Of a stretch of 64,000 nt of DNA, positions 10,986 to 47,612 are shown one piece after another. The notes below the pieces were generated by a model. That model worked only from the letters and a program-made list of their open reading frames with translations. It did no database searches and was not told the DNA's origin. Made by a program: the position numbers and the translations under genes. Source of the DNA: Nitrosococcus halophilus Nc 4 (GTDB taxonomy: Bacteria; Pseudomonadota; Gammaproteobacteria; Nitrosococcales; Nitrosococcaceae); assembly GCF_000024725.1 (NCBI RefSeq), contig NC_013960.1, positions 3,458,001 through 3,522,000 on the forward strand, given 5' to 3'. Position 1 is the first letter of the stretch. Each line of letters starts with the position of its first letter.

Positions 10986-12160
<1,175 letters not shown>

Positions 12161-12244: not shown

Positions 12245-12299
12245 TTGACAGTTGGTGCAATACCATATATACGTCCTAAGGACGTATATATGGTATTGC
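12245..12299 (+). promoter_or_regulatory. abiE promoter with overlapping 43-bp palindrome
   Basis: A consensus -35 TTGACA (12245-12250) is followed, 17 bp later, by TATACG (12268-12273), which lies inside a perfect palindrome (12257-12277 with 12279-12299, one central base; core CGTCCTAAGGACG). A smaller repeat AACTGTCAA (12209-12217) / TTGACAGTT (12245-12253) links this site to the upstream palindrome. Binding here would directly block transcription. Confidence 0.6.
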
Positions 12300-12308
12300 T
12301 TCTACCTC

Positions 12309-13229
12309 ATGGATATTCGCACCGCTCTGACTCTGGAACTGGGTGATCTCCATCAGCCCGTTGTGACTAGCTATCATCTCGGGCTTCTGGTGTTTCGCCT
12401 ATACAAAACCAAAACCTACCGCGGTGAACCGATTGCCCGTTTGAGCAAGTCCTACCCAGAGCGGAGCGACTATCGCCGGTTTGTCGGCAGTTTGGAACAT
12501 TCAGGTGTGCTTCGGAACACCACAGCAGTGCCTAATAAAGAGGTTTTCATTCTTCTTGGCAAAGATATTTCCTCGGCCGAGGAAATTGCCTGTTGCGTCG
12601 ATCCCTTCGCCTATGTTTCGCATCTGAGTGCTATGGAATATCACGGACTCACCGACCGTTTTCCAAAGACTCTCTTTATAACCGCCCCTCCACCCGTTCG
12701 TTGGTCACAGCTGGCAGTGGAGAAAATGCGAAAGGATATAGGAGGAGAATTTTATTCTTCATATCTTGACGCTAATCTTCCCCGGTTGCGGCGTTTGCGT
12801 TTACCAAAAATCAATCGCAAGACCGTCAGCCTATTCACGACCGTTCATTACGATCCCGGCGCTTATCTGTCAATTCAGGGAAAGACTTTGCGAGTCTCGA
12901 CCATCGGGCGTACGTTTCTTGATATGATCCGGGAGCCTGATCTATGTGGTGGCATCTATCATGTGCTGGACGTATTTGCTGAGCATGCGCCCCGCTATCT
13001 GCGTTTGATCGTAGATAAGGTTGACCGCCATGGTAGTCCCATTGACAAGGTGCGCGTTGGATATATTCTTGAAGAGCGTCTTAAGCTCGAACATCCTACC
13101 ATCGCGACATGGCGGGCCTATGCCAAACGAGGCGGTTCACGAAAGCTTTTAGCACAAGCTGACTACAGCCCGCGCTTTTCCGAAACCTGGTGCTTATCCA
13201 TTAACATCGATGAACCTGAGGAGGCCTGA
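12309..13229 (+). CDS. abiEi: AbiEi-family antitoxin / transcriptional repressor
   Basis: A 306-residue type IV antitoxin and autoregulator of the AbiE system. The N-terminus contains a winged-HTH-like segment (TSYHLGLLVFRLYKTKTYRG), followed by the AbiEi middle region (DPFAYVSHLSAMEYHGLTDR, the usual YVSHLSAL-like motif) and a C-terminal domain with TIGRTFLDMIREPDLCGG. The ATG at 12309 is preferred over a GTG at 12252 because the latter lies upstream of and reads through the operator palindrome. Stop and toxin start are adjacent, so the two genes are co-translated. Confidence 0.85.
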   Translation: MDIRTALTLELGDLHQPVVTSYHLGLLVFRLYKTKTYRGEPIARLSKSYPERSDYRRFVGSLEHSGVLRNTTAVPNKEVFILLGKDISSAEEIACCVDPFAYVSHLSAMEYHGLTDRFPKTLFITAPPPVRWSQLAVEKMRKDIGGEFYSSYLDANLPRLRRLRLPKINRKTVSLFTTVHYDPGAYLSIQGKTLRVSTIGRTFLDMIREPDLCGGIYHVLDVFAEHAPRYLRLIVDKVDRHGSPIDKVRVGYILEERLKLEHPTIATWRAYAKRGGSRKLLAQADYSPRFSETWCLSINIDEPEEA

Positions 13230-14090
13230 TTGCAAAAATTCGATATCAAAGAGTGGGTCAACCAGAATTCAGAGCATCGCCCCTTTCGCCAAGCCGTTCA
13301 TACTATCCTCACCGCGATTGCAGGTACACCCAGCCTACAAACCGCCATGATTATGAAGGGCGGCGTCCTGCTTGCTCTCAGCTACAGAAGCCCGCGTTAT
13401 ACCTCGGATATCGACTTTTCGACAGCAACGAAGCGGCCTGATTTTGACCTTGATGATTTCCAAAGAAAACTTGAAGCGAGTTTGATTGATGCCGTTGAAA
13501 ATTTGGGATACGGACTCGATTGCCGCATTCAGCGTTGCAAGATGAAGCCCTCTCACGATGAGGCTACCACGCCGACGCTTCAGATCAGCATTGGTTATGC
13601 CTATAAAGACCAGCACAACGCTTATAAGCGTCTGTTAGCAAGCCGGGCAATTACTGTCATTAGCCTCGATTATAGCCTAAACGAGCCAGTTGAAGAAATT
13701 GACATCTTCGAGCTGGAAGGCGGGAATATTATTCATACCTATAGCCTGGTGGAGATGGTGGCGGAGAAGTTCCGCGCTCTCTTGCAACAGGAAGTCCGCA
13801 AGCGGGCACGGCGTCAGGATATTTATGATCTGCACTATGTCCTGAGCGATCATCCCCTGCGCGACGACTCGGATACCAAAGCCCGTATTCTCAAAAGGCT
13901 GATTGAGAAATCACGCATTCGTGATTTATCGGTACATTCAGATTCTATGTCCAACCCCGAAATTCGAAATCGCACAGCGCTTGAATATTCCAAGATGGCC
14001 CCGGAAATCGAAGGCGATCTTCCACCATTCGATGAGGTTTATGCCATGGTCGAGGCCTTTTATCGATCCCTTCCTTGGGAAAAGGTCTGA
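13230..14090 (+). CDS. abiEii: AbiEii nucleotidyltransferase toxin
   Basis: A 286-residue AbiEii/AbiGii-type nucleotidyltransferase, the toxin of AbiE, whose activity causes abortive infection in characterised systems. It has the polymerase-beta-like motif KGGVLLALSYRSPRYTSDID (GG...S-x-D-x-D), and further on SLVEMVAEKFRALLQQ and RRQDIYDLHYVL, conserved in the family. It starts at TTG immediately after the abiEi stop, with GAGGAGG 8 bp upstream. The frame and motifs are complete, so the pair is probably functional. Confidence 0.86.
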   Translation: MQKFDIKEWVNQNSEHRPFRQAVHTILTAIAGTPSLQTAMIMKGGVLLALSYRSPRYTSDIDFSTATKRPDFDLDDFQRKLEASLIDAVENLGYGLDCRIQRCKMKPSHDEATTPTLQISIGYAYKDQHNAYKRLLASRAITVISLDYSLNEPVEEIDIFELEGGNIIHTYSLVEMVAEKFRALLQQEVRKRARRQDIYDLHYVLSDHPLRDDSDTKARILKRLIEKSRIRDLSVHSDSMSNPEIRNRTALEYSKMAPEIEGDLPPFDEVYAMVEAFYRSLPWEKV

Positions 14091-14219
14091 TTCCCTGTAT
14101 CACTATTTGCTTCATCGTTTCGGCCAAAATATCTACTTGGGCAGATTCGCATAGGCTTCTGGTCTGCTCCTGGAGGGCAGTACACTGCTGGCACGAATCA
14201 CCCCGACGGAGCGGACTGA

Positions 14220-14471
14220 ATGAGGGCGGCCTACCTGGAGAAGCGTGACTTGGAGAAGCGGCAGTTTCGCTTCTACCGCATTATCATCACTCAGACCCTC
14301 TTCGGCCCCTGGGCCTTGATCCGGGAATGGGGACGGATTGGCAGCCCCGGCACCGTTCGGGAAGTCTGGTATGACAGTGAGCAGGAAGCCTTGGCAGCAG
14401 GTGAAAAGCTCATGAAGCAGAAAACGAGGCGGGGATACCAAGCCATCGAGCAACAGAGAAGCTATCGCTAA
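14220..14471 (+). CDS. WGR-domain protein
   Basis: An 83-residue protein that is almost entirely one WGR domain: FRFYRIIITQTLFGPWALIR, then EWGRIGSPGTVREVWY (the WGR triad) and a C-terminal helix EQEALAAGEKLMKQKTRRGY. WGR domains occur in PARP and DNA-repair proteins; stand-alone bacterial versions have no firmly assigned role. Its stop overlaps the herA stop by 3 bp tail-to-tail. Confidence 0.82.
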   Translation: MRAAYLEKRDLEKRQFRFYRIIITQTLFGPWALIREWGRIGSPGTVREVWYDSEQEALAAGEKLMKQKTRRGYQAIEQQRSYR

Positions 14472-16528
14472 TTTTTTGAAACAACGGCATTATTTTCTGG
14501 TATATCCTCAGTTATTAGGGCAGGAAGATCGATCTCTACGGGCGTATCTTCCGCTCTAAACCAAAGTTCCCGGATAGCCGCGTCATCACTCTTCGGTGCT
14601 GGACTAACATCACGCACCTTGAAGGTCGCAGGAAGGTTAACCGCATTTCCAAAAATTAATGCGTGTTGCTTTGGCAAGGACGGCAGGCGCTTTATCACCA
14701 TGTCAGAAACAAGCGGGGTCATATGGCGGATATGTGCAAGATCATCTGGATTCTGGATGCGATGAATGATGAAGTTGGAGCACTGAGATAATACCGTCCT
14801 CGATAACTCGCTCGGGCGCTGCGAGGCAACCATAAGGAACATGCCGTATTTTCTTCCTTCCTTTGCTATACGCTCAAAAATCCAGCTTGCACCTCTAGCA
14901 TAGCCTGATGGGTATTCCGCTATATAACGATGCGCTTCTTCTAAGATAAGATTCACTGGGAGGCGATTGCGCGGCTCCGTCCGGCGGAGTCTATCAAATA
15001 TAAGCCGTGCCATAACCGCCGATGCAACTTCGACCGCTTCATCAGCGGCCTCATTCATATCAAGAATGATAATCTGAGCTGATTTAAAAAAACGGCCATC
15101 GCGCCTTTCTAAGCCAAGGAATCTTTCAACAAAAACATCAAGTCGTGTTTCGTGTTCCTGTAGGTCATCAGCAGAAACTCTTAAGAACGCAAACTCTTCA
15201 CGTTCCTTTACCCACTTGAACCGCGTGAGCATCTGAGCACAATAGTCCCTGATCTGCCGATTCCCATGGGATTCCTCGTAAAGAATAGCAAGGTCAAGTG
15301 CTGCTCCAAGATGATCGAAGTCAAATTGGTCATGAGCATAGCTTGGAAGCGATACGTCTTCGATAATGAAAACTTCTAGGAATTTCATTAGCTCATCTGT
15401 CTCCTTCCCTCCACCGAAACTAACCTCTATCTTTTCTTCCAAAATATTGAGGTTAATCTCGCTTGTTGAGAAGGAGGAAAGTAGTGCAATTATCCGATCT
15501 CTCTTAGCCGCGCTTCCGATGTCTCCTTGCCAAATAGTGCGGATACAAGATGCGAGAATATGGTTTCTTATTCTTTCAAGTTCCCCGTCTTTATTACTGG
15601 CAAACAAGGAAGCCAACCCTAGTGCAGTGCGTAGAACCGGCTGCTGTGTTCGTTCACTGGCACGCAGCAACAATTCCCATTCTTCAACCGACATAAACCA
15701 ATGAGGCAATCGGAATACCGCAGTGTCTTCGGCCTCATCTAAAGGCGTGGGCGGCGCGTCAGAGGGATTCTCAGCAACACGGAGGTAAATCCTTTTGATC
15801 TTTTCGGGAAGGTTGGCGAAAGCTTTGCGATATTCCCCATTAACATCCAGCAAAATGAATGTCGCACCATGGGCTGTATATTCATTTTCTTTTTCGAATA
15901 GCGACTGAAGCACAGTTGCAACGGTACACGACTTACCGCTTCCAGTATTACCGAGTACAGCGGCATGGCCGCCAAAAAATTCATCAATACGTACTTTCAG
16001 ATCATAGTCTTGAAAGACGGTGGACGTACCAATAGGTAGTGCTTTATAACGGGTCGCCGTATCATCACTATTGCTTGGGACGGGCTCGCTCCAGCCTGCT
16101 ACTTCAAAGATACGGTCGAGTTCGTTATCAACGGTGTAAAGTGCATCGGCATAGAGAGACGGAAAAGTAGATACTCCAAACCGGAAGTCGCCATCACGTT
16201 TTTGCTGGAGCATTCCGACAGGGACAAGATCAAGGAATTTAGCTGATGAGACCTTATCAAGTTCACTGTTATCTCCTGGAGTTGTACGATTCGCCGCTGA
16301 TTCCTTCTCACGGAGTCCAATGACTTCGGCAACGACGTACTCGGACTGAACTGGAATCATTACGAACGAACCGATCCGGGCGACATAGTGGATATCATCA
16401 AATCCAACTACCATGAAATTGTCGTTTCCACTCAGAAGCTCGACAACTAGCCGCTCGGAAGAGACTGATATAACTTTGCCAATAACTCTACGCCGATCAT
16501 CAGAGGCCATTACCTTCGCCCTTGCCAT
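14468..16528 (-). CDS. herA: HerA-type ATPase/translocase of a SIR2-HerA defence pair
   Basis: A 686-residue FtsK/HerA-superfamily ATPase. An N-terminal beta-barrel (HAS-type, about 10-75) precedes Walker A GNTGSGKS (193-200); the later Walker B LILEEAHRY and sensor VASQRPSELSRTVLSQCSN are typical HerA/DUF87. HerA pumps DNA as a hexamer; in SIR2-HerA systems it assembles with the SIR2 protein and the complex depletes NAD on infection. It overlaps the SIR2 gene end by about 29 bp; an internal ATG at 16510 is an alternative start. Last gene of the res-mod-SIR2-herA operon. Confidence 0.9.
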   Translation of the reverse strand: MARAKVMASDDRRRVIGKVISVSSERLVVELLSGNDNFMVVGFDDIHYVARIGSFVMIPVQSEYVVAEVIGLREKESAANRTTPGDNSELDKVSSAKFLDLVPVGMLQQKRDGDFRFGVSTFPSLYADALYTVDNELDRIFEVAGWSEPVPSNSDDTATRYKALPIGTSTVFQDYDLKVRIDEFFGGHAAVLGNTGSGKSCTVATVLQSLFEKENEYTAHGATFILLDVNGEYRKAFANLPEKIKRIYLRVAENPSDAPPTPLDEAEDTAVFRLPHWFMSVEEWELLLRASERTQQPVLRTALGLASLFASNKDGELERIRNHILASCIRTIWQGDIGSAAKRDRIIALLSSFSTSEINLNILEEKIEVSFGGGKETDELMKFLEVFIIEDVSLPSYAHDQFDFDHLGAALDLAILYEESHGNRQIRDYCAQMLTRFKWVKEREEFAFLRVSADDLQEHETRLDVFVERFLGLERRDGRFFKSAQIIILDMNEAADEAVEVASAVMARLIFDRLRRTEPRNRLPVNLILEEAHRYIAEYPSGYARGASWIFERIAKEGRKYGMFLMVASQRPSELSRTVLSQCSNFIIHRIQNPDDLAHIRHMTPLVSDMVIKRLPSLPKQHALIFGNAVNLPATFKVRDVSPAPKSDDAAIRELWFRAEDTPVEIDLPALITEDIPENNAVVSKN

Positions 16529-17831
16529 CAGTTTCTAGGCGGCGCATCATCAATGTCTGGAGCACCTTATCAACAGCGGTATCTACCCTGTCGCCTGGTG
16601 GCTCCGGCATGAATTCTTCAATAAACGTATCGAAAAAGTGAGCATAGCGGCCACTTGATGGCCCGTCACCGCCAATCAACCAGATGCGAGGGTCGCCCAG
16701 ATCCTTGAGTTGGGTAACAACCCCTTCTAAATCGGTAGGCACGAAAGCAACCATACGAAAGGTTGGTATGGTAAGTGCCTGAAAAATTATATTATTTATA
16801 TGTTCATCAGAAAAACTATAGCCGAGCACAAACAGCACGCTTTGGTCACGCACAATCCGCGATTGGAATTCCCGGAAGAGATCGGAATAAGGAGAGCCAA
16901 AACTGGCATTCTGCTTGGCAGGTGTGGGATAGATCATAACACGTCCTGCACCTTCGTCTGCTTTCTGTATTTCCCGGATGGGAAATAACCCTTTGGCTTC
17001 CTCTATCCAATTTACCGAACCATGCAGCTTGCATAGATAAACAAAGCTGTCCACCGCTGTCCATTTCCGGCTAGAAACATCAAGCTGTTCTGCGAGGGAA
17101 CAGCGGAAAGTTGCGGGATTAAACCGGCGCTCGACTGTCCCAGAAAACCCATTGCAATATGGGATTCCAAGCCTATCCATCGCCGTTTCATTAAACAGAT
17201 CATAATTTGTTGTGAAAACCCAAGGCCTCGGTAAAGCGCGGTCGCGGTAAACAAGCTTACGGTAAAAGGCCTGATACAAATTACAGACGGTTTCATCGCC
17301 CCTGGTGAAAGCCCCTTTAGTACAGCTTCTTAGGACATAGCGGGTAATTTTTGAGATTACAGCTTCAACGGTTTCACAAAGCTCTGTTAAGTTATTATTT
17401 TTGCTGCACTTAAGAGCGAACTTAAAACTGTAGAGCACCTCCATAAGATGCTCCAGATTCGAAGTATAATTATTCTCAGTTATATCGAGGCCAAGGTTGT
17501 CTAGCAGGGTATCTCGCTCGTTTTCGGTTACGAAGAATTCATTATCTTCATCACCTATTCTATTGATAAATTCTTCTGCCATCGGCTTCATCGTTGGAAT
17601 GCCGAGCTGACTTTCATCATCAAGCAATGACGAACATCCCGAGCCGAGCAGAAAAGAGACGTTTCTTGCACACAGTGCGTCGCTGAGACTTTCACGTACT
17701 GTCGCCGCCGCCTGTTCCCAGTTAAACATTTTTCCATTCTTTGATGCGGCAACATCATCGGCACCCTTAAAGAAAGAAAATGCAGGTGCATCTACCTCCT
17801 CGTAATCGCTAGCAGCCATACTTTCTCTCAT
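16500..17831 (-). CDS. SIR2-family NADase of a SIR2-HerA defence pair
   Basis: A 443-residue SIR2-like protein. NAD-site features are visible: LLGSGCSSLL near residue 60, VFTTNYDLFNETAMDRLG (TxNYD), and YLCKLHGSVNW with the catalytic-type His, then VLGYSFSDEHINNIIFQAL and VAFVP. This arrangement belongs to bacterial defence SIR2 proteins that hydrolyse NAD rather than deacylate proteins. The start ATG overlaps the mod stop (ATGA), and the end overlaps herA, so stoichiometric expression with both is likely. Linkage to HerA supports the anti-phage role; activity is inferred. Confidence 0.9.
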   Translation of the reverse strand: MRESMAASDYEEVDAPAFSFFKGADDVAASKNGKMFNWEQAAATVRESLSDALCARNVSFLLGSGCSSLLDDESQLGIPTMKPMAEEFINRIGDEDNEFFVTENERDTLLDNLGLDITENNYTSNLEHLMEVLYSFKFALKCSKNNNLTELCETVEAVISKITRYVLRSCTKGAFTRGDETVCNLYQAFYRKLVYRDRALPRPWVFTTNYDLFNETAMDRLGIPYCNGFSGTVERRFNPATFRCSLAEQLDVSSRKWTAVDSFVYLCKLHGSVNWIEEAKGLFPIREIQKADEGAGRVMIYPTPAKQNASFGSPYSDLFREFQSRIVRDQSVLFVLGYSFSDEHINNIIFQALTIPTFRMVAFVPTDLEGVVTQLKDLGDPRIWLIGGDGPSSGRYAHFFDTFIEEFMPEPPGDRVDTAVDKVLQTLMMRRLETDGKGEGNGL

Positions 17832-19780
17832 GCCGTATGCAGGTTATCTTTGAATGCGGCTTGAAGAGCCCACTTTTTAGTGGTGTCGAGGGCACGACTT
17901 GAGACAATCAGTTGTTCATCGCTGTGCTGAGCAAGGGCCTCTATGGTTTCCTCATTGAGGGTAGCATCGAGGCATAGCAGGGCAGCCTTATCATTGCCTC
18001 TCAGGCGATAAACAGCATTGCTGGTGAAAGCAGCTAGTTTCTCCAGCTCATAAAACAGGCCGTAACCATTTTTGAGGGCAATTTCGGTAACTACTTCATC
18101 GAAGTCCTCGTTACCGAACAGCAAGTGCTGGCGGCTGGCCTCTAGATGCTCTTCTAGTGCAGCTACGTTCTCGGCCTCAGTCTTATTCGGGTCAGGAGTA
18201 TAGAAATTTTGCGGGAAGTAGCTGTCAGTGAGACGATAAACACGGAAACCCGTATCGATCTCAGCATCTGGATGCTCTTCACGGGTTTTCTGTCCGGCTA
18301 GTCTCACTCGCTCAATACATAAAGAAGAAATCGTAGACAACCCTTCCTTGCTAGCAAGGCTGTCTTTAGCTGTAATTTCAGGAACTTGGACAAGAATAAA
18401 TTTTCTCTTTTTCCCATCTTCTGCATTAACTTGGAAAACAGCATGAGCCGTAGTTCCTGATCCCGCAAAAAAGTCCATAACAATGGATTCTTCGTCTGTT
18501 GCCATACGAATCGCATCTGCAATCAGGTCAACAGATTTTGGGGATTGAAATATTTTCTCCTTTTTTTCAAAGAGGCGATTAAATTCAGTTTGTCCTTTTT
18601 CAGTATGATATTTCTTGTCACTCCATATGGACTTCAGTTTTTTTACAGGAGCATTTCCAGGTTCTGCCGCATATGCTTTGCGGAATATCTTCCATCTACC
18701 GGAAACTTTCCGGGCAACAATTTTATCAAGATCCTGCCGTGCTCTATCTTTTCCCCATGTCCAACATCCTTCGAAGCCATCATCCCAATTCGGGTAAATT
18801 TCTTCATCCCCATCTTTTGGATCAAGTGATACTTTTCCAGTGCTCGATACATAAAATGGATAATAAAGATTAGGACGGTTATGCCGCCCGAACTCACGGT
18901 GAGTATTGCGCAGCTCCAATTCACGATAAACTCCACCTTCATCCCGAAGAGGAAAATTTTTTTTCACCTCATCAGTGGACTTAGGAACGGATACAGCTCC
19001 ATTCTCTAACGGGGATTTTGAGTAAATCAGAAGAAACTCATGACAGTTCGCAAGATATTTGTCCTGCGACCGCCCCTTTGGATTGCATAATACCGTGACT
19101 TGACCGATAAAATTTTCAGCACCAAATATATCTGATGCAAGCAATTTTAAGTGGGCAACTTCATTGTCATCAATACTAATGAAGATTATCCCATCATCTC
19201 GCAACAACTGACGGGCCAATAAAAGCCTGGATTGCATCATATTCAACCAGTTAGAATGGCGTCGCCCACTAGCTTCGGTAACGGCAGTGAGCCTCACTCC
19301 ATCCTTGATAGCACCGCTTCTCTTCCAATAGGCCGTCTTGGTTTCTCGGTAGTCATCTGGATAGATAAAGTCATTCCCGGTGTTATAGGGAGGATCGATA
19401 TAGATGCATTTCACCCGCTCAAAGTAGGTCGCTTGAAGTAGCTTCAGCACTTCCAGATTATCGCCTTCGATGATAAGGTTTTCCGTGCTCTCGAAATCTA
19501 CGCTACGGGTCGGATCAGCCACCAAAGTGGCCCGGCTCGGGGTGAAAGCATACCGCTTTGACTGCTGCTTGCCTGCCCATTCAAAGCGGAAGCGCTCGTT
19601 CAAAGCCAATCCGTCAGGCGATACCAAGGCACGCAGGGCCTTCTCATCCAGATTGCCCTCGCCATCGAACAGGTCAGGAAACAGGCGCTTCAATTCATTA
19701 AGGCGTGCTTTCTGCTGATCGGGGCTGGTGATGGCTATCGGCTTCGGCTCTTTTACTTCCCTTAAGGCAGTCTTGGTCAT
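17828..19780 (-). CDS. mod: type III restriction-modification methyltransferase (Mod)
   Basis: A 650-residue N6-adenine methyltransferase of the beta class. The catalytic motif DPPYNTGND begins at residue 129, ahead of the SAM motif FFAGSGTTAHAVFQ near residue 440, as in type III Mod proteins. Between them lies the variable target-recognition region. It follows res by 15 bp and is coupled to SIR2 by ATGA. The order res then mod is the reverse of the common mod-res arrangement. The target site cannot be read from sequence. Confidence 0.92.
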   Translation of the reverse strand: MTKTALREVKEPKPIAITSPDQQKARLNELKRLFPDLFDGEGNLDEKALRALVSPDGLALNERFRFEWAGKQQSKRYAFTPSRATLVADPTRSVDFESTENLIIEGDNLEVLKLLQATYFERVKCIYIDPPYNTGNDFIYPDDYRETKTAYWKRSGAIKDGVRLTAVTEASGRRHSNWLNMMQSRLLLARQLLRDDGIIFISIDDNEVAHLKLLASDIFGAENFIGQVTVLCNPKGRSQDKYLANCHEFLLIYSKSPLENGAVSVPKSTDEVKKNFPLRDEGGVYRELELRNTHREFGRHNRPNLYYPFYVSSTGKVSLDPKDGDEEIYPNWDDGFEGCWTWGKDRARQDLDKIVARKVSGRWKIFRKAYAAEPGNAPVKKLKSIWSDKKYHTEKGQTEFNRLFEKKEKIFQSPKSVDLIADAIRMATDEESIVMDFFAGSGTTAHAVFQVNAEDGKKRKFILVQVPEITAKDSLASKEGLSTISSLCIERVRLAGQKTREEHPDAEIDTGFRVYRLTDSYFPQNFYTPDPNKTEAENVAALEEHLEASRQHLLFGNEDFDEVVTEIALKNGYGLFYELEKLAAFTSNAVYRLRGNDKAALLCLDATLNEETIEALAQHSDEQLIVSSRALDTTKKWALQAAFKDNLHTA

Positions 19781-19795
19781 AATCTGGCTCTTTGC

Positions 19796-22471
19796 TTACA
19801 TATCAAAAAAAGTCTGGCCGATGCGCTCACGGGCGCGGGTATCGAAGCTCTTCAAGCTATCCACCGGGGCCAGATAGGCCGCAAGGCCAATGGCCTCGAA
19901 GTGCTTCACCGCACATTCAATCTTTAGCTTTTCATCAGATTTTAGCTTCTCCCATTCGGTAGTACCTTTGGTCTCTACAGTAAAATAAAAGCGCTGCTCA
20001 GCGGCAGGATTATCCAAGTCCTTTTTTTCAATCACCAGTGCAAAATCGGGGTTATAGTTCCCGATTGGTGTCGGGATTTTATAACTGGCTGGTAGTTTAA
20101 TAAGGACACGCACTGCATGGTGGTTGTCGAGTTCACCGGCGAAGTGCTTCTCCACGTCGGAATCATGGATGATACGATCATAGAGGCCATGCTTCGGCGT
20201 GGCTGTAGTTTCCCGTTTGGTCTCGATCACGGTCTCGAACAGGTCGAGAGGGTGAGATTCCTCAATCGGCTCGTATTTCACCAACCGCACCATTTCCCGT
20301 TCCAGCACCCGGCGCACTTTTTTAGTGGCCTCGGCAAGAAACTGCATGGGGTTCTTGGCAAGCTGGCGTTTCTGCACCTCTGCCATCCCATCTAGAATGG
20401 AGGCGGCTGTCACGTCAGATAGAGCCGTATTCCGGGCGAATTCGTCCACCACATCAACCCTGGAAAGGTGCGGACTAAGAGCAGCACGGGTTGAGCCTTT
20501 CCCTTGCCCCTCGATCCCGTCTGCTTCAGTCATTCGGCTCCAGTAGGTCAATGACACTTCCAACCGGTTCTCATCCACGGCAATATCCGCCAGGGCGGCA
20601 ATACTTTTCTCGATCAACTCGTCTTCCCGGAAATGCACCCGGCACCGGGTTTTACGGGCGATCCGCTTCCAAAGATTCTTAAAGTCGTCTGAGGTAAAAC
20701 GCTCAGAATTGAGATGAAGTTTTACAAGTTTGCGATTATTGTCGCGCACCGGCGGCGCTTTGGCATGAATACCAAGCTCTTCATGCAGCTCCTCTTGATA
20801 GCTACTGACGAAAGCATAATAGCTCTGATTGGCTACAACAGTGAGCAGGTTCACTTCCTCGTTTTCTTTCACCGATTCCGGATCACGATAGCGCCTGCCC
20901 TGTTGATCGACGCACAGGCGAAGGCCCCGCCCTATCTCCTGCCGCTTCTTGATGATGCTTTCAGTCTCATTCAAGGTGCAGATAGTGAAGACATTCGGGT
21001 TGTCCCACCCTACCCCCAAGGCCGAGTGCGAGAAAATGAACTCAAGGGGCTCATCAAAGGAAAGCAAGGCTTCCTTAGCCTTTAGAATTTTTTCGTAAAT
21101 TTCAGCATTGGTCGCCATGGACTTGGCGTTATCGGTGTAATCGCCGCTGCTAGTCTTAGCGAAATAACCACCATGCACTTCATGAGCATTGGGCGGGTCT
21201 TCTTTATGGGCCTTACGGTAGAACGCCTGATATTCTTCCAGGAACAGGCGGCGAATCAGCCCGTCCTCATCCATATAGTTGGCCACACGGTCAATAAAGA
21301 ACAGGGCAAGAGGCTTGATGCCTATTGGTACAAGCTGCTTCTTGCGCTCAAAATGATTGTGGATGGCGCGGCGAATTTGCTCGCGAAAGATAGCTTCCTG
21401 ATCGCTGCCATGCTTTGCGCCTTCACCGATCTGCTCACCGTTGGTGAACTTCACATAGCCTTCACCACCGTAGAGATCGGTGGTGCCAATATCCTCAACA
21501 ATCCAGCCATGGTAGACAGGGTTGCCGGTCTTTTTCTCCAGGTCGTCGCCACGCTTCACAGTGATAAGCTTGGCTTTGAGATCGCCGCCCTTCAGGCGGA
21601 CATTAAGCTGTAGCCGGGCAGTTGGATCGGCCGCGCTCAGGTTAAGCTTTCTGAACTCTATGGCTACATTGCTTTGCGTATTCGTCTCGTGAATCGAGAG
21701 CACGGCAATCTTTTTCACCAGTCCACGATTGTACGCATCGAAGGGAGTGAGGCGGTAAATAATGTTCTTTAGTTCGCGGTGGGTGGCAGAATAGCGCAGC
21801 TTAAACAGCGGATTGAAGGCGGCGATCCGGGCCTGCATATTGGGGGTGTCCATGCCCTCCTGCGGCTCATCCATAATGATGATCGGCTGCACCTGGCGCA
21901 GCATCTCCATTAAATTACCGCCGTCTCGGTTCTCGTCATTGATGATCTTGGCATCGCTGTCGAAGGCCTGCTTATTCATGACCATGATGGAAAGATGATT
22001 GGAGACGCAGAAACTCCGCACCTGAGTCAGATTCTTGCTATCATACTCAGTGACTTCGGCTTCGGTTGCGTAGATTTCCCGGAAATGCCCTTTGGTGAGG
22101 CATAGCTGGGCCAGTGTGCCCTCGCGGATCGCTACGCTCGGTACGACGATAATGAACTTGTGCAAGCCATAGCGCCGGTGCAATTCAAAGATGGTGCGGA
22201 GATAGACGTAGGTTTTCCCCGTGCCGGTCTCCATCTCAATGGTAAAATCCCGCTCGCTGGTCGGTGCATAATCCTCTATGCCATTCTCAGCGGCAATGGC
22301 AGCAACATTAGCCTGCCAATATTCGGCGGGTAACTTCAGGATATTGCTGGAAACTTCACCGCTCCAAAAGCGCTCTTCTGGCCGTGTATAGGGTGCACCC
22401 TCAAATACACGAACAATCGCCGAAACGGCTTCACTCTGGTGCTTTAGATTGGGCTCGAAGTGGATTCTCAT
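19796..22471 (-). CDS. res: type III restriction-modification endonuclease (Res)
   Basis: An 891-residue SF2 helicase-nuclease. Walker A lies in METGTGKTYVYLRTI (GTGKT at 83-87), the DEAD-type box is IIIMDEPQEGMDT, and later helicase motifs include SHSALGVGWDNPNVF and QEIGRGLRL. The C-terminal nuclease reads NPDFALVIEKK...FTVETKG (PD-x-ETK). All key motifs are present and the frame is unbroken, so the enzyme looks active with mod. It is likely the first intact gene of the operon, 84 bp after the broken nuclease gene. Confidence 0.92.
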   Translation of the reverse strand: MRIHFEPNLKHQSEAVSAIVRVFEGAPYTRPEERFWSGEVSSNILKLPAEYWQANVAAIAAENGIEDYAPTSERDFTIEMETGTGKTYVYLRTIFELHRRYGLHKFIIVVPSVAIREGTLAQLCLTKGHFREIYATEAEVTEYDSKNLTQVRSFCVSNHLSIMVMNKQAFDSDAKIINDENRDGGNLMEMLRQVQPIIIMDEPQEGMDTPNMQARIAAFNPLFKLRYSATHRELKNIIYRLTPFDAYNRGLVKKIAVLSIHETNTQSNVAIEFRKLNLSAADPTARLQLNVRLKGGDLKAKLITVKRGDDLEKKTGNPVYHGWIVEDIGTTDLYGGEGYVKFTNGEQIGEGAKHGSDQEAIFREQIRRAIHNHFERKKQLVPIGIKPLALFFIDRVANYMDEDGLIRRLFLEEYQAFYRKAHKEDPPNAHEVHGGYFAKTSSGDYTDNAKSMATNAEIYEKILKAKEALLSFDEPLEFIFSHSALGVGWDNPNVFTICTLNETESIIKKRQEIGRGLRLCVDQQGRRYRDPESVKENEEVNLLTVVANQSYYAFVSSYQEELHEELGIHAKAPPVRDNNRKLVKLHLNSERFTSDDFKNLWKRIARKTRCRVHFREDELIEKSIAALADIAVDENRLEVSLTYWSRMTEADGIEGQGKGSTRAALSPHLSRVDVVDEFARNTALSDVTAASILDGMAEVQKRQLAKNPMQFLAEATKKVRRVLEREMVRLVKYEPIEESHPLDLFETVIETKRETTATPKHGLYDRIIHDSDVEKHFAGELDNHHAVRVLIKLPASYKIPTPIGNYNPDFALVIEKKDLDNPAAEQRFYFTVETKGTTEWEKLKSDEKLKIECAVKHFEAIGLAAYLAPVDSLKSFDTRARERIGQTFFDM

Positions 22472-22555: not shown

Positions 22556-23610
22556 TCACTGACGGTCATCCTCACCAGCCCTGTTTCTGCCAAACTCCGC
22601 CTCCACCTCCTCCACCGTCGGCAGATTGGCTTTCAGCTCTTCGGGCAATGTCCCGGCCAGTTCATAGCGGGAAATCCCAATGGGCTTGCCCACATCCCGC
22701 AGGGAATACTCCGCCACCACGTTGTTGCGATCCTTGCAGAGGATCAACCCAATGGAGGGGGTATCCTCGGCCATCTTCACCTGCTCATCGAGGGCAGTGA
22801 GATAAAAATTCAGCTTTCCTGCGTATTCGGGTCGAAACGGCCCATTCTTTAGCTCAATGGCCACATAACAGTGCAGCTTGAGGTGATAGAATAGCAGATC
22901 AATGTAAAAATCATCCCCGCCCACCTCCAGGTGATATTGCTTGCCCACAAAGGCAAACCCCTTGCCCAGCTCCAGCATGAACCGGGTGATGTGATCCACC
23001 AAGGCCTGCTCTACTTCCCGCTCGTGAGCCTCTTCCCCCAGGTCGAGAAAGTCGAACACATACGGGTCTTTCAGCGTTTCTTTGGCCAGATCGGAATTCG
23101 GCGCAGGCAGACGCTCGGCAAAATTATCGATCTTGGGCTGAGCCGCCTGGCGCTCATAGAGCCGGTTTTCAATTTGAAGGCTTAAAACATGGCGCGACCA
23201 GTTGTTCTCCAGGGTCTTGCTGACATACCAAAGGGCCTGCTCGGGCGCTTTAATCTTCTCTACTATCAATGCATTATGCCCCCATGGAATTTGTGCCACA
23301 AGCTGTGGCACAAAATCGTCCTGATCCGCATAGAAGCTGTACCATTGCTTGATCCGGTAGAGATTGCGCCGGGAAAACCCCTTTACGCCGCCCAACTCCT
23401 GGGTCAGGTCGTGGGCGATCTGGTCAATGACGGCATCCCCCCAGCCGCTCGCCTGCTGTTTTTCGGTAATCAGTCGGCCCAGCCCCAGTACAGGCTAATC
23501 AGCTCGGCATTTACCGCCCGCGCCGCTTTGAGCTGAGCGGTCTGCACCTTCTGTTTGAGGGTGGCAATAAAATCTCGGTAATCGGGGGTTTGAACAAGCG
23601 CCTGGATCAT
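22556..23610 (-). pseudogene. DUF1016/YhcG-type PDDEXK nuclease, frameshifted
   Basis: The full gene would start at ATG 23610 (MIQALVQTPDYRDFIATLKQ) and run to 22556, about 351 residues, the normal length. After ELISLYWG the frame shifts near 23482-23486 (TACTGGGGCTGG): adding one base restores LGRLITEKQQASGWGDAVID and then GFSRRNLYRIKQWYSFY, the DUF1016 core. The C-terminal nuclease motif (DDFYIDLLFYHLKL, VAIELKNG) is intact. A truncated protein could start inside at 23395. It lies directly upstream of res on the same strand. One-base sequencing error is the alternative. Confidence 0.82.
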
Positions 23611-24447: not shown

Positions 24448-24843
24448 TTATGGGCCTACCCCTAGCGTATTGTCACGCAGCCAAACGGCGAAGGTGGCTT
24501 CATCAATATCGCCCGCGGCAAGCGCCCTCATCATGTACGTGGCTTTGTCCTCCGGGGCCGTGAGACGGAGGCCGTTGCGCGCCAGAAAGACATAGGCCGC
24601 CATGAAGGCCGTGCGTTTATTGCCATCTACAAAAGGATGGTTCCGGACGATTCCAGCCGCATAGGCAGCGGCCAGCGCGCACAGATCCGGATCGTCGTAA
24701 GTCGCTAAATGCTGTGGCCGGGCCATGGCAGATTTCAGAAGTGCCCCGTCGCGAAGTCCGGCGGCGCCGCCGTGCTCGGCCAGTAAGCGGTCGTGCAGCG
24801 CTTCAATGACGGCAAGCGCTATCCAGGCCACCTCTCTCGCCAT
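24448..24843 (-). CDS. doc: Doc-type (Fic-fold) toxin
   Basis: A 131-residue Doc/death-on-curing protein. The Fic motif HPFVDGNKRTAF (HxFx-D/E-GNKRxx) is present in full; the N-terminus EVAWIALAVIEALHDRLLAE and LRDGALLKSAMARPQHLATY are typical of the Doc branch. Characterised Doc toxins phosphorylate EF-Tu. The start at 24843 has GGAGGAGG upstream and lies 10 bp after the AbrB-type antitoxin. The frame is complete, so this pair looks functional. Confidence 0.9.
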   Translation of the reverse strand: MAREVAWIALAVIEALHDRLLAEHGGAAGLRDGALLKSAMARPQHLATYDDPDLCALAAAYAAGIVRNHPFVDGNKRTAFMAAYVFLARNGLRLTAPEDKATYMMRALAAGDIDEATFAVWLRDNTLGVGP

Positions 24844-24853
24844 GCCTCCTCCG

Positions 24854-25078
24854 TTACTTGGCAAGCGCGCGAAGGGTATTGCGATAGGCCGCCATACCTT
24901 CCTCAGCGAGTTGCATCTGGCGCTCGAACTCAGGATCATAAGGCGTGATGCGGTAGCCATCTGGAGTTTCAGTGAGGAACACGCGCTCTCCTTCCCGTAG
25001 TTTCAAGCGATCAAGCGCTTCGCGCGGGAATACGGCACCGAGGGAATTGCCGATCTTGCGGATCTTCATTTCGATCAT
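24854..25078 (-). CDS. AbrB-type antitoxin partner of Doc
   Basis: A 74-residue SpoVT-AbrB (MazE-like) swapped-hairpin DNA-binding protein: MKIRKIGNSLGAVFPREALD then LREGERVFLTETPDGYRITP. The C-terminal helix (FERQMQLAEEGMAAYRNTLRALAK) is the likely Doc-neutralising segment. AbrB-type antitoxins paired with Doc are a common alternative to Phd. GGGAGGGA lies upstream of the ATG at 25078; an in-frame ATG at 25069 is possible. Confidence 0.87.
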   Translation of the reverse strand: MIEMKIRKIGNSLGAVFPREALDRLKLREGERVFLTETPDGYRITPYDPEFERQMQLAEEGMAAYRNTLRALAK

Positions 25079-43153: not shown

Positions 43154-43245
43154 GGAGAGGTACCGAAGCGGTCACAACGGCACCGACTCGAAATCGGTTG
43201 GGGCTATTGCAGCCCACGCGGGTTCGAATCCCGCCCTCTCCGCCA
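43154..43245 (+). tRNA. tRNA-Ser (anticodon CGA)
   Basis: A 92-nt class II tRNA with encoded CCA. The acceptor stem GGAGAGG (43154-43160) pairs with CCTCTCC (43235-43241); the anticodon loop CTCGAAA in the ACCGA...TCGGT stem gives CGA, reading UCG. A long variable arm (GGGGCTATTGCAGCCC-like) and the T-loop GGTTCGAATCC are present. The type I restriction island begins 355 bp downstream, and tRNA-Ser 3' ends are frequent integration sites. Confidence 0.95.
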
Positions 43246-43599
43246 TTGTTTGATAATAAGTTATTGATTAATAATCAATAAATCACTTTCATCCTGCTCA
43301 GGTCTTATTTTTGGTCTTACAGCAGTGTGCAGTTTCCCACCTGCGAATTGATGGTTGTCTGCTCCCGGTACCCACCCTCAGCACTTCGCCAGCTTTTCTC
43401 TTTACCGGCGGATATCCTTGAGCTTTTATTCCAGTTCCCCCTGGCTCAACTCCTTCAAGTCACCAAGAAAGTAGCGATGCTACCTTCAGGAAACACGAAA
43501 ACAAAAAGGATGAACTGTAATGAGTCTTGTCCTCTAGGACTCGTTTAATGGGCTTCCCGCCAGCACCCACGGGGTTGCAAAATGCAAGGAGTTTGATGC
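43246..43599. other. tRNA-hsdM spacer
   Basis: About 350 bp. AT-rich just after the tRNA with ATTGATTAATAATCAAT, a perfect dyad (43263-43279). No open frame resembles an integrase, though a minus-strand segment next to the tRNA (GKLHTAVRPKIRPEQDESDL) could be a relic of an integrase gene end. AAGGAG ahead of hsdM is the ribosome site. Confidence 0.35.
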
Positions 43600-46324
43600 A
43601 TGACCAAGAAGCTGACTCTGAGCCAGCTATCGAATTTGCTGTTCCGTGCCTGCGACGACCTGCGCGGCAATATGGATGCCTCGGAGTACAAAGAATACAT
43701 CTTCGGCATGCTCTTCTTGAAGCGACTTTCAGATCTCTTCGACCAGGAACGGGAGCAACTCGCCAAGGACCTGAAGGCCAGGGGCATGGCGGATGAAGTG
43801 ATCGAGACTCAGCTCGACAATCCGGACAAATACACCTTTTGGGTGCCACCTGAGGCGCGATGGGACCCCAAGGATAAAAATGGTGAGCGGCCCAAAGATA
43901 AGGAAGGCAAGCCTCTGGGGGTCTCCCACCAGAAAACCAACGTGGGCACCTATCTCAACAAAGCCTTGGAGGCGCTTGAAGACGCCAACCCGGACGCGTT
44001 GCAGGATGTTCTCAAGCATATCAACTTCAACCGCAAAATTGGCCAGCGCACCCTCGACGACGATACTCTGTCTAACTTCATCCAGAACTTCGAGAAAATC
44101 CCGCTCCGGGACGAGAACTTCGAGTTCCCCGATCTGCTCGGCGCGGCCTATGAGTACCTTATCAAGTATTTCGCCGACTCCGCGGGCAAGAAGGCTGGTG
44201 AGTTCTACACCCCAGCCGATGTCGTTCGAGCGCTGGTTGAGATCGTCGATCCTCAACCTGGCATGAGCATTTACGATCCCACTTGTGGGTCAGGCGGTAT
44301 GCTGATTCAGACTCGGGACTACATTCGTGAGTGTGGTGGCGATCCCCGTGATATGACCTTGGCAGGCCAGGAAAGCATCGGGACCACCTGGTCTATTTGC
44401 AAGATGAATATGCTTCTGCACGGCATCCCCCATGCGGATATCCGGCAGGAAGACACCCTCCGCCGACCCCAGCACAAGGACGACAACGGGGAGCTGCGGC
44501 GCTTCGACCGGGTCCTTGCCAACCCGCCGTTTAGTCAGAACTACATCAAAAAGGACATGGAGCCCCCAGGCCGCTTCGCCGTCTGGCTGCCCGAGAAGGG
44601 CAAGAAAGCCGACTTGATGTTCGTCCAGCACATGCTGGCGGTACTCAAGGGCAACGGCAAGATGGCCACGGTCATGCCCCACGGCGTGCTGTTCCGTGGC
44701 GGCGAGGAGCGCGAGGCCCGGCGTCATTTTATCGAGCGGGGCTGGCTGGAAGCCATCATCGGCCTGCCAGCGGGGTTGTTCTACGGCACCGGCATTCCCG
44801 CCTGTGTCCTGGTGATGAACAAGCAGGATGCACAAAACCGCAAGCAGGTGGTGTTCATCAACGCCGACCGGGACTACCGGGAAGGCAAGGCCCAAAATTT
44901 CCTGCGAGCCGAGGATATCTCCCGCATCGTCCATGCCTACCGCACGCTCGCAAGCGGTAAACGGGACGAGATTCCTGGCTATGCCCGATGCGTGCCCATC
45001 GAAGAGATCGAGGGCGAGGACTTCAACTGCAATATCCGCCGCTATGTGGACAATGCCCCCCCCCCGAGCTTCACGATGTGCGGGCCCATCTACACGGCGG
45101 CGTACCCAAGGGCGAGATCGATACCCTCGAACACTTCTGGATCAACTACCCGGACCTTCGCCAGCGCTGTTTTCAGCCACGGCCGGACACTGAAGCTTAC
45201 CTGGACTTCACCCCAGAGGTGACTGATCGCCGCGCGCTGGCCGGCATCGTCAATAATGATAAGAGCGTGGCTGCTGCCCACGAGCGCTTCATTAGCATGC
45301 TGGAGCGCTGGTGGCGGAAGCATCTGCCCCATATCGAGGCGCTGGCCCCGGACAACGGCAAGAAGGGCAATGTCTACGGGCTGCGACGCTTGCTGCTCGG
45401 GTCCATCGAAAAGGCGCTAGCTGATCAACATTTGTTGTCAGACCATCAGGTGCGTGGCGGTTTGGCATGCTACTTCGAATATTTTAAGCCGGAATTCAAG
45501 TCCATCGCCTTCAGTGGTTGGGGCCCGGAGCTAATCCCCGACGACGAGATTCTGCAAAGCCAATTCCCCGAAGTGCTGGCCGCCATGGAAGCCAAGCGCA
45601 CCCGCCTCGCGGAGCTGACGGCCCTCTTCACTGCGGCCGACGAGGAGGACTACGAAGACGAGGACGACACCGGGGTGTTGCCCAGCGACCAGGTTATAAA
45701 GCCCTCAAGGAAGAACTGAAGGCGCTGAACGCCACCTGGAAGGAGGCCCTCAAGGAGCTGAAGGCCCTCGCTACCGATCTCTTCACCGAAATGAAGGTGG
45801 CGGGGGTGCTCCCAAATGGGGTCAAGAAAGGCGACGTTACGCGGGGAATGTCGGCCAAGGAGGCCAATTTCAACGCGGGCCAGGTTATCCTCGACTTGGC
45901 CGCCGAGGCCAACTTCACCTCGGAGCGGATCGAGGCGATCCGGAAACACATGCAGGATGGTCGTGAAGCGCTGGAGCGGGCCCAGGCCTGTGAAACTCGA
46001 CTAGCGCGGCACAAGGCCCTCGAAGATGAATCCAAGCAGCTCAAGGCGGATTTGCGGGCCATTGAGAAAAAGCAGGACGAGCTGGTGGCCGCCGCGCGGG
46101 AGAAGATCGACCCGGATGAAGCGCGGAGGGTCATTATTGACCGCCTCCACCGGCTCCTGGTGCAGACCTACGAGTCCTACCTCCGTGCAAATCAACGGGC
46201 GTGCCTGGTGGCGCTGGAGAACCTGCACGCCAAGTATGCGGTCACGGCCGAGGATATCGAGCAGCGGCGAGATGCGGCGATAGCAAAGCTCAAAGGGTTT
46301 TTGGGGGAGTTGGGGTATGTGTGA
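43600..46324 (+). pseudogene. hsdM: type I restriction-modification methyltransferase (HsdM), two frameshifts
   Basis: Read through two shifts this is a ~908-residue HsdM: N-terminal helical domain, SAM motif [12 protein letters not shown], catalytic NPPF ([11 protein letters not shown]), [12 protein letters not shown], and a long C-terminal coiled region. Shift 1 is at a run of ten C (45056-45065); an eleventh C would give [20 protein letters not shown], the expected continuation. Shift 2 lies at about 45680-45698, between GVLPSDQ and KALKEELKALNATWKEAL. Each shift is -1. The first fragment (to 45222) contains all catalytic motifs. Sequencing error at the homopolymer is the alternative for shift 1. 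Confidence 0.88.
45056..45065 (+). repeat. poly-C tract (10 C) in hsdM
   Basis: Ten consecutive C bases inside the hsdM coding sequence, exactly where the frame breaks. Eleven would keep the frame. Long G/C homopolymers are classic slipped-strand phase-variation sites in restriction-modification genes. Confidence 0.85.
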
Positions 46325-47612
46325 TTGGGCTGAAGAGCAACTCGGCCGTCTGGCATCCATTGAGATCGGTGGGACCCCTGCTCGTGAAGTAGCAGAGTAC
46401 TGGGCACGAGAGGAGGACGAGGGGCATCCATGGGTATCGATCGCGGACCTTGGCCCCAGAATTGTCTTCGACACGAAGGAGCGAATCACGAACGCCGGCA
46501 TCCTCAACTCGAACGCCAAGAGGGTGCCGAAGGGAACGCTCATGATGAGCTTTAAGCTCACCATCGGCCGAGTCGGAATTGCTGGGAGAGACCTCTATAT
46601 AAATGAGGCTATCGCAACCATTATCCCAACAGATGGCCGGCTCGATGGGAGGTTTCTCTATTATGCATTACCCGATACTGCCCGGAGTGCAATCACCGAC
46701 ACTGCTGTAAAAGGCGTCACCCTGAACAAACAGAAGCTAGGTGGCCTTCTGATCCGGTTCCCAGAGAGGCTTGATGAACAACAACGCATCGCCGAAATCC
46801 TCTCCACGGTGGATGAGGCCATCGAGCACACCGAAGCGCTCATCGCCAAGATGCAGCAGATCAAGGCCGGCCTGATGCACGACCTCTTCACCCGAGGCGT
46901 CACCCCGGATGGCCAGCTCCGGCCCCCTCGCGAGGAAGCCCCACGGCTCTACAAAAAGTCGCCGCTTGGTTGGATTCCGAGGGAGTGGGACACTGAGCTA
47001 TTGGACAACATTGCCCTCCGGGGGAGCGGTCACACGCCGAGCAAAAATCATCCGGAATACTGGAACGGCGAAATCAAGTGGATTTCATTGGCTGACTCGT
47101 GGCGATTAGACCGAGTTCACATTGTGGACACGGATCACAAGATCACACAGGCTGGCATTGAGAACTCCTCGGCGGTTGTTCATCCGGCAGGAATCGTGGT
47201 CCTCTCTCGTGATGCCGGTGTTGGTAAAAGCGCTGTAACTACGTGCGAAATGGCGGTTAGTCAGCATTTCATGTGCTGGCGTTGTGGTCCTCGTCTTAAC
47301 AACTATTACCTCTATTACTGGTTACAGTACCGCAAGTGGGAGTTCGAAAACATCGCGACCGGAAGCACGATCCCAACCATCGGCCTTCGGTTCTTCCGGC
47401 ACTACCGAATCAATATCCCCCTTGAGGTCTCAGAACAAGAACACATCGCTGCAACACTGCTCGCTGCCGATGAAAAGGTATTCAGTCTGGAAGACGATGT
47501 AGGCAAACTGAGGCAGCTGCGTGCGGGCCTCATGCACGACCTTCTCACCGGCCGTGTGCCTGTTTCCGCGGCAGATGCTGCCGAATCCAAAAAAATCGCC
47601 GCGAATGTCTAA
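46317..47612 (+). CDS. hsdS: type I restriction-modification specificity subunit (HsdS)
   Basis: A 431-residue protein with two target-recognition domains, each followed by a conserved helical spacer: EQQRIAEILSTVDEAIEHTE / KAGLMHDLFTRGV and EQEHIAATLLAADEKV / RAGLMHDLLTGRV. TRD1 covers about 1-160 and TRD2 about 215-370, so a bipartite target is expected. It overlaps the last hsdM frame by 8 bp and looks intact, although its partners are broken. Its stop overlaps the ATG of the first hsdR-start copy. Confidence 0.93.
   Translation: MCDWAEEQLGRLASIEIGGTPAREVAEYWAREEDEGHPWVSIADLGPRIVFDTKERITNAGILNSNAKRVPKGTLMMSFKLTIGRVGIAGRDLYINEAIATIIPTDGRLDGRFLYYALPDTARSAITDTAVKGVTLNKQKLGGLLIRFPERLDEQQRIAEILSTVDEAIEHTEALIAKMQQIKAGLMHDLFTRGVTPDGQLRPPREEAPRLYKKSPLGWIPREWDTELLDNIALRGSGHTPSKNHPEYWNGEIKWISLADSWRLDRVHIVDTDHKITQAGIENSSAVVHPAGIVVLSRDAGVGKSAVTTCEMAVSQHFMCWRCGPRLNNYYLYYWLQYRKWEFENIATGSTIPTIGLRFFRHYRINIPLEVSEQEHIAATLLAADEKVFSLEDDVGKLRQLRAGLMHDLLTGRVPVSAADAAESKKIAANV

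Follow-up and report, generated by a model that had tools for sequence, protein, structure and literature searches.

A SIR2–HerA pair ending a type III restriction-modification operon in Nitrosococcus halophilus, a candidate exchangeable defence cargo

The stretch of DNA analysed here (hereafter the window: 64,000 nucleotides of Nitrosococcus halophilus Nc 4, NC_013960.1, positions 3,458,001 to 3,522,000) contains a run of four intact, tightly packed genes, all on the minus strand (Table 1). The res and mod genes of a type III restriction-modification (R-M) system are followed by genes for a SIR2 protein and a HerA ATPase, and a frameshifted YhcG nuclease gene lies ahead of the run. When the longest open reading frames (ORFs) are taken, res and mod are 15 bp apart, mod and SIR2 overlap by 4 bp, and SIR2 and herA overlap by 29 bp. 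A first-pass annotation, made from the letters of the window alone, had placed SIR2–HerA in one gene run with type III R-M; its ORFs, families and spacings were confirmed, and the broken PD-(D/E)XK nuclease that it saw at the head of the cluster is the frameshifted YhcG/DUF1016 gene.

Table 1. Features of the operon and of its surroundings (positions in the window)
Feature	Position	Strand	Description
res	19796-22471	minus	891 aa; type III restriction subunit, SF2 helicase and PD-(D/E)XK nuclease; heads the gene run
mod	17828-19780	minus	650 aa; type III N6/N4 DNA methyltransferase
SIR2	16500-17831	minus	443 aa; Nezha/GAO_19-type, putative NADase; other possible start at 17819
herA	14468-16528	minus	HerA/DUF87 ATPase; 686 aa as longest ORF; likely start at 16510
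ATGA	17828-17831	minus	mod stop overlapping one candidate SIR2 start
YhcG/DUF1016 PD-(D/E)XK nuclease gene	22556-23610	minus	frameshifted; ends 84 bp before res
AbiEi-AbiEii pair and WGR-domain ORF	12252-14471		convergent pair
WGR-domain ORF	14220-14471		overlaps the herA stop by 4 bp
IS21 IstB and resolvase fragments	10986-11739		beside the defence genes
Fic/DOC family ORF	24448-24960
Type I R-M system	43154-47612		directly past a tRNA-Ser gene
HsdM	43600-45222
HsdS	46317-47612

The sizes of the mod/SIR2 and SIR2/herA overlaps vary with the choice of start codons. In relatives, HerA begins at the equivalent of Met7 of the window protein, which would shorten the overlap with SIR2; a value of 11 bp appears more likely than 29 bp. 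The second ATG of SIR2 lies 12 bases beyond the ATGA start and would leave an 8-bp gap to mod, and both SIR2 starts fit the variable N-termini of the relatives about equally. In the nuclease gene ahead of res, the first 46 codons (23470-23610) run into a stop and the remainder is in another frame (ORF 22556-23395). Scans for consensus promoters and terminators gave no clear excess over shuffled sequences (8 against a mean of 10.4, standard deviation 2.8, and 14 against 10.4, standard deviation 3.6), so it is from their spacing that we infer one transcript across the four genes.

Family searches returned DUF87/HerA, SIR2_2, N6_N4_Mtase, and ResIII plus RE_endonuc, and the PADLOC models scored 959 bits for HerA, 696 for SIR2, 515 for MTase_III and 672 for REase_III. 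The best PDB sequence matches were EcoP15I (4zcf) for Mod and Res and SIR2/HerA-type chains (8yhx, 8yho) for SIR2 and HerA. All the motifs that we sought, using patterns drawn partly from alignments, were present in the four proteins. Mod carries the N6/N4 amino-methyltransferase motifs, and Res an SF2 helicase with a C-terminal PD-(D/E)XK nuclease, as in the EcoP15I class of type III systems; the window operon differs from that class in having res ahead of mod and a two-gene effector behind. Likewise, the SIR2 and HerA genes resemble the known SIR2–HerA systems (Nezha, GAO_19) in being adjacent, on one strand and overlapping, in their catalytic Asn/His (SIR2) and Walker A/B (HerA) motifs and in their strong PADLOC matches. 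They differ in being the last genes of a type III operon and in missing the cut-offs of the NCBIfam antiphage equivalogs (139 against 500 bits for SIR2, 208 against 800 bits for HerA). Those equivalogs cover one subfamily each and do not define the whole kind, so the window pair would belong to another subfamily.

The inverted order of res and mod, also pointed out in the first-pass annotation, was borne out when 39 further type III loci were compared; the window's class supplied 20 of these, the other 19 were anchored on an alphaproteobacterial Res, and five of the 39 were incomplete. The order was mod-res at 32 of the 34 evaluable loci and res-mod at two (L147, L151). The inversion is real and uncommon, and it is not unique.

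To place the arrangement in context, we collected 111 loci with both SIR2 and HerA, from contigs, viral sequences, plasmids and further genomes, plus the window itself; five (L197, L198, L199, L201, L204) repeat others. Neighbouring genes came from a simple longest-ORF caller, which makes their starts and gaps approximate, and their protein families were checked on representatives; the systematic R-M search covered type III mod genes and, within type II, MmeI-type methyltransferases. Visible flanks amounted to 8-10 kb on each side for most contig loci and to about 1-4 kb on the 3' side for loci added later. The first-pass annotation had regarded the coupling as incidental should the four-gene order be confined to this strain. 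Taken literally that is the outcome, as the exact res-mod-SIR2-herA order occurred, among the loci examined, in the window only; the broader arrangement of R-M followed by SIR2–HerA nevertheless recurs in several separate SIR2–HerA lineages.

With hidden Markov models (HMMs) built for this work, a type III mod gene was found near SIR2–HerA at nine of the 111 loci (the window, L063, L083, L084, L085, L095, L101, L194 and L211). Without exception, these nine mod genes lie upstream of SIR2 and share its strand and its gene run; none was found at the 3' side or on the opposite strand. Most of these loci also served as HMM seeds, so their detection is not independent; their position was free to vary. 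A methyltransferase of the MmeI type was present at five loci, always 5' and co-directional: four times in one run with SIR2–HerA (L094, L097, L195, L196) and once (L079) parted from it by opposite-strand genes. Pfam identified a DEAD-box helicase and a GIY-YIG-type gene as companions in L097, and the GIY-YIG-type gene in L195 too; for these companions, L094 was assigned through its clustering with L097, and L196 by the order and size of its genes.

The commonest 5' partner, however, is AbiEii, in 31 of 111 rows (29 without two repeats); it always overlaps or lies at most 51 bp away. The commonest architecture in this SIR2–HerA group is AbiEii, usually with AbiEi, then SIR2–HerA, often followed by a DnaQ/RNase_T-like exonuclease of about 297 aa; the AbiEii-headed loci are L019-L021, L035, L037-L042, L053, L059-L062, L064-L066, L068, L072-L076, L078, L080, L081, L099 and L193.

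Among seven distant plasmid loci, a type I R-M system ends 79 bp before SIR2–HerA in L218 (a plasmid of L. plantarum, on a distant branch), N-6 methylases begin 2 kb downstream in L213, and a cytosine methyltransferase lies about 4.5 kb upstream, not contiguous, in L215; no annotated R-M was seen at the other four. No type III R-M was seen at seven close plasmid SIR2–HerA loci, three of them unannotated records scanned with the HMMs, and plasmid searches with mod and res returned only relatives below 60% identity. In a phage collection three records matched SIR2, none with 80% coverage. Viral contigs contributed 4 and 6 loci, and those scanned had no visible type III mod near SIR2–HerA (L106 and L014 have little flank). 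Within the window's class, SIR2 had a match in 13 of 369 genomes including its own, the others at most 35% identical.

Two further loci types may be mentioned here. L211 (1836-15077) presents a run of a ResIII helicase, a type III-like Mod, a 208-aa protein, UvrD and a PD-(D/E)XK/RNase H protein, ending in a distant SIR2–HerA (26% identity). At L035, L037-L042 and L056, SIR2–HerA loci at least 97% identical occur in species that belong to several genera of Alphaproteobacteria. A TIR-domain gene lies upstream of them and, where visible, a PD-(D/E)XK and UvrD pair downstream (Pfam on L035 only); these loci look like a recently moved element.

The partners of SIR2–HerA appear to have been reshuffled. 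A tree of SIR2 plus HerA was built from 70 representatives, obtained by clustering 92 loci at 97%. On this tree the type III label requires six changes, gains and losses pooled, at least five of them forced by starred branches, and its clustering is no stronger than in shuffles (87 of 500 were as low). Pairwise identities account for this scatter. The SIR2 proteins linked to type III R-M in L063, L084 and L194 are 92-94% identical to that of the AbiE-linked L021 (92-95% for SIR2 and HerA together). Compared with L095 and L101, the same three loci have Res proteins 74-78% identical and SIR2 proteins only 45-48% identical, and the SIR2 of L095 and L101 is in turn 80-88% identical to that of the MmeI-linked L094, L097, L195 and L196. 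Such close SIR2 proteins with different partners, and close Res proteins with distant SIR2, indicate that R-M and SIR2–HerA modules have been recombined with their arrangement preserved. The window is a separate case from the L063/L095 group, its mod being 29-33% and its res 37-38% identical to theirs.

An exchange on a smaller scale is visible within mod. In L063 (4768-6864), L084 (4722-6842) and L194 (8002-9876), Res is 91-96% and Mod only 54-56% identical, and the nucleotide match between L063 and L084 breaks inside mod, a recognition-domain exchange within otherwise close operons.

Breakpoints at the 3' end of type III operons were found in three comparisons. L101 and L243 are collinear, at 79-84% nucleotide identity up to the res stop codon except for a break inside mod; past that stop, L101 has SIR2–HerA whereas L243 has a Ppl-like gene, and identity resumes (82%) 14 bases past the herA stop in L101 and about 540 bases past the Ppl-like stop in L243. 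In L251 (11983-16000), a Res 95% identical to that of L063 is followed by 238 bp matching the start region of L084 SIR2 (84%) and then by Gabija; it appears that a SIR2–HerA tail was replaced by Gabija, with the SIR2 start left as a scar. Finally, L063 and the AbiE-linked L021 share SIR2–HerA from 15 bases inside SIR2 onward, and their upstream sequences differ. These breakpoints are the strongest evidence for SIR2–HerA as exchangeable cargo in this arrangement.

Related operons of the SNF2-DUF4391-mod-res type vary in what follows res: a DUF4268/PDC-S11 protein (L242), a 941-aa protein with a partial Ppl match (L243), a DUF3644/PDC-S19 protein (L245), an AAA gene paired with McrBC (L247), a metallophosphatase paired with an SMC-like protein (L248) or Gabija GajAB (L251). 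A Schlafen AlbA_2 protein follows res in L246, whose contig begins inside mod. In L155, from the window's own class, an OLD-TOPRIM ATPase and UvrD pair begins 8 bp after res.

Taken together with the stand-alone activity of two published SIR2–HerA systems, the module swaps favour an autonomous second layer that shares expression with R-M. According to the accessible parts of one report (PMC11559045), SIR2 and HerA of V. cholerae form a complex, mutations in the SIR2 active site abolish defence, and an island deleted except for SIR2-herA keeps resistance to two ICP1 phages. In S. thermophilus, as far as the available text of PMC11514479 goes, SIR2/HerA is either flanked by R/M systems or located downstream of them, and it protects when cloned alone.

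We consider it probable, with real room for doubt, that the window holds a composite anti-phage operon in which SIR2–HerA is an autonomous abortive-infection effector and an exchangeable 3' cargo co-expressed with R-M. As a first layer, the type III system would mark self DNA and cut unmodified phage DNA. The second layer, made from the same transcript, would combine the HerA ATPase with a SIR2 that probably hydrolyses NAD+ once triggered during infection. The position after the last type III gene would be a slot for module replacement, and SIR2–HerA would also occupy such a place after certain modules of the type I, MmeI and AbiE kinds. With modules replacing one another at this slot, the coupling would consist of shared expression and inheritance rather than of a dedicated SIR2-Mod contact. 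We infer both the NADase activity and the layered defence for this organism.

Several observations weigh against this reading. The contig loci represent the best 80 of 190 relatives retrieved with a SIR2 profile from one-genome-per-species contigs, and the tree of SIR2 plus HerA was a quick search that raised long-branch warnings. No R-M is seen beside the nearest kin of the window pair, L025 (69%; 2.8 kb visible) and L026 (67%; 3.9 kb visible), nor any type III mod in the 9.7-10 kb of upstream sequence visible for L027-L032 (58-63% identical). Conversely, SIR2–HerA was present at none of the 20 type III loci from the window's class (some of them incomplete). With the L063 Res as query (E 1e-100 or better), 22 matches were obtained in two groups of 205 genomes each, 10 genomes having a match in one group and 11 in the other; SIR2–HerA follows only three of these matches (G370, G372 and G743, which are the loci L084, L101 and L194), plus the one scar.

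Nor is the slot always filled. Of the 32 type III loci that could be evaluated on the 3' side, only 10 carry a co-directional gene of 150 aa or more at a distance of up to 100 bp, namely L242, L243, L245-L248 and four loci of the window's class (L145, L149, L152, L155); L251 falls outside the ten, a short opposite-strand ORF having been counted first. The gene in L149 is an SNF2-type helicase that belongs to the R-M system itself, that in L145 has no family assignment, and that in L152 is of the FAD-binding monooxygenase type, not a defence gene, which counts against a pure defence slot. The slot is occupied often, not always.

Two points concern the window directly. At fourfold sites, res has a GC content of 0.68, against 0.43-0.50 for mod, SIR2 and herA (the first third of mod is intermediate, at 0.59), and this contrast may reflect a separate history of res. 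Nevertheless, mod (0.50-0.70) is below res (0.62-0.86) in L063, L084, L095 and L101 too, which makes the contrast partly usual for such operons. Furthermore, no swapped sister of the window's res-mod locus was found, so it is by analogy with the relatives that its tail may be taken to have been acquired through such a swap.

Rather unlikely, in our estimation, is a guard arrangement, in which SIR2–HerA would be held inactive by the type III complex, or triggered through it, and would deplete NAD+ when a phage anti-restriction function disables R-M, much like PrrC in EcoPrrI. SIR2–HerA does stand repeatedly right behind R-M genes of three kinds, and contiguity of an effector gene with R-M genes, as in PrrC-type modules, is found in the window. 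But the same slot also holds Gabija, a system active on its own, and SIR2–HerA more than 90% identical to the type-III-linked pairs stands behind AbiE, which is not R-M, in other genomes; this argues against a dedicated contact with Mod or Res. Since pairs 92-95% identical occur behind AbiE or type III genes, and another lineage behind type III or MmeI-type genes, the tuning of SIR2–HerA to one Mod seems unlikely. The hypothesis itself is set out in PMC3506569, with guardian precedents in a review (PMC12707154), both as far as their accessible text goes; in the accessible accounts of the two published systems (PMC11559045, PMC11514479) SIR2–HerA acts alone, without an adjacent R-M system. Accordingly, the first-pass proposal of a tie to methylation state found no support, and its interpretation as a whole stands in part.

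A bolder version of the guard idea seems to us quite unlikely: type III operons would be chassis with a 3' socket for exchangeable, R-M-guarded suicide effectors (SIR2–HerA, Gabija, Ppl-like proteins and others), the loss of restriction during infection would free whichever effector is fitted, and the window would be the version with inverted res-mod.

We think it decidedly improbable that the four genes are incidental neighbours in a defence island, their spacing being due to chance compaction. The exact order was seen in the window only, res differs in composition from the rest, an AbiE pair, the broken YhcG gene and insertion sequence (IS) remnants surround the operon, and most of the type III loci fetched had no SIR2–HerA. 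Chance neighbourhood, however, does not fit the invariably 5' and co-directional placement of the nine mod genes, nor the collinear-flank swap and the replacement scar at this very slot. Last, a DNA hand-off, in which DNA ends from type III cleavage would be taken up by the HerA ring and thereby activate SIR2, restriction itself being the trigger, seems very improbable: HerA is among the DNA-translocase ATPases and several upstream partners cut or modify DNA, but the commonest of them, AbiE, is a nucleotidyltransferase toxin-antitoxin system, not a nuclease.

R-M operons with defence modules inside them or alongside are already known. In its accessible text, the 2012 paper of Makarova et al. 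(PMC3506569) proposes that immune loci, R-M among them, carry suicide genes which immunity components may restrain, and lists Sir2 with the domains that occur at R-M loci of types I and III. The accessible parts of a 2025 review (PMC12707154) present PrrC and PARIS as R-M guardians, and those of PMC12255303 describe DarTG2 inside a type I R-M system, citing Payne et al. for "genetically embedded" defences. Like PrrC in EcoPrrI and DarTG2, the effector of the window operon is a further defence system lying within R-M genes or adjoining them; unlike those two, it stands after the last type III gene, a slot at which swap breakpoints are documented in relatives. It likewise shares with GAO_19 of S. 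thermophilus a SIR2–HerA adjoining R-M genes, whereas that system is described, in the available text (PMC11514479), by its island position and its activity without R-M rather than by operon coupling. In the parts consulted of the open-access literature (preprints and most subscription journals lie outside it), neither a cargo slot at the 3' end of type III operons nor SIR2–HerA as its cargo was described; the slot and its scars are what is new here.

With the preferred reading of a composite operon, a single odd gene arrangement becomes a testable pattern, in which different suicide or defence modules take one another's place at one defined position of restriction operons. Module swaps behind one R-M system would put the 2012 idea of a coupling between immunity and suicide (PMC3506569, in its accessible text) to a direct test, and the genes after res in type III operons offer a route to new defence genes.

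As for the surroundings of the operon, a convergent AbiEi-AbiEii pair is accompanied by the WGR-domain ORF that overlaps the end of herA. The IS21 IstB and resolvase fragments beside the defence genes suggest past mobile-element activity. Farther off, the window also contains a Fic/DOC family ORF and, directly past a tRNA-Ser gene, a type I R-M system with HsdM and HsdS.

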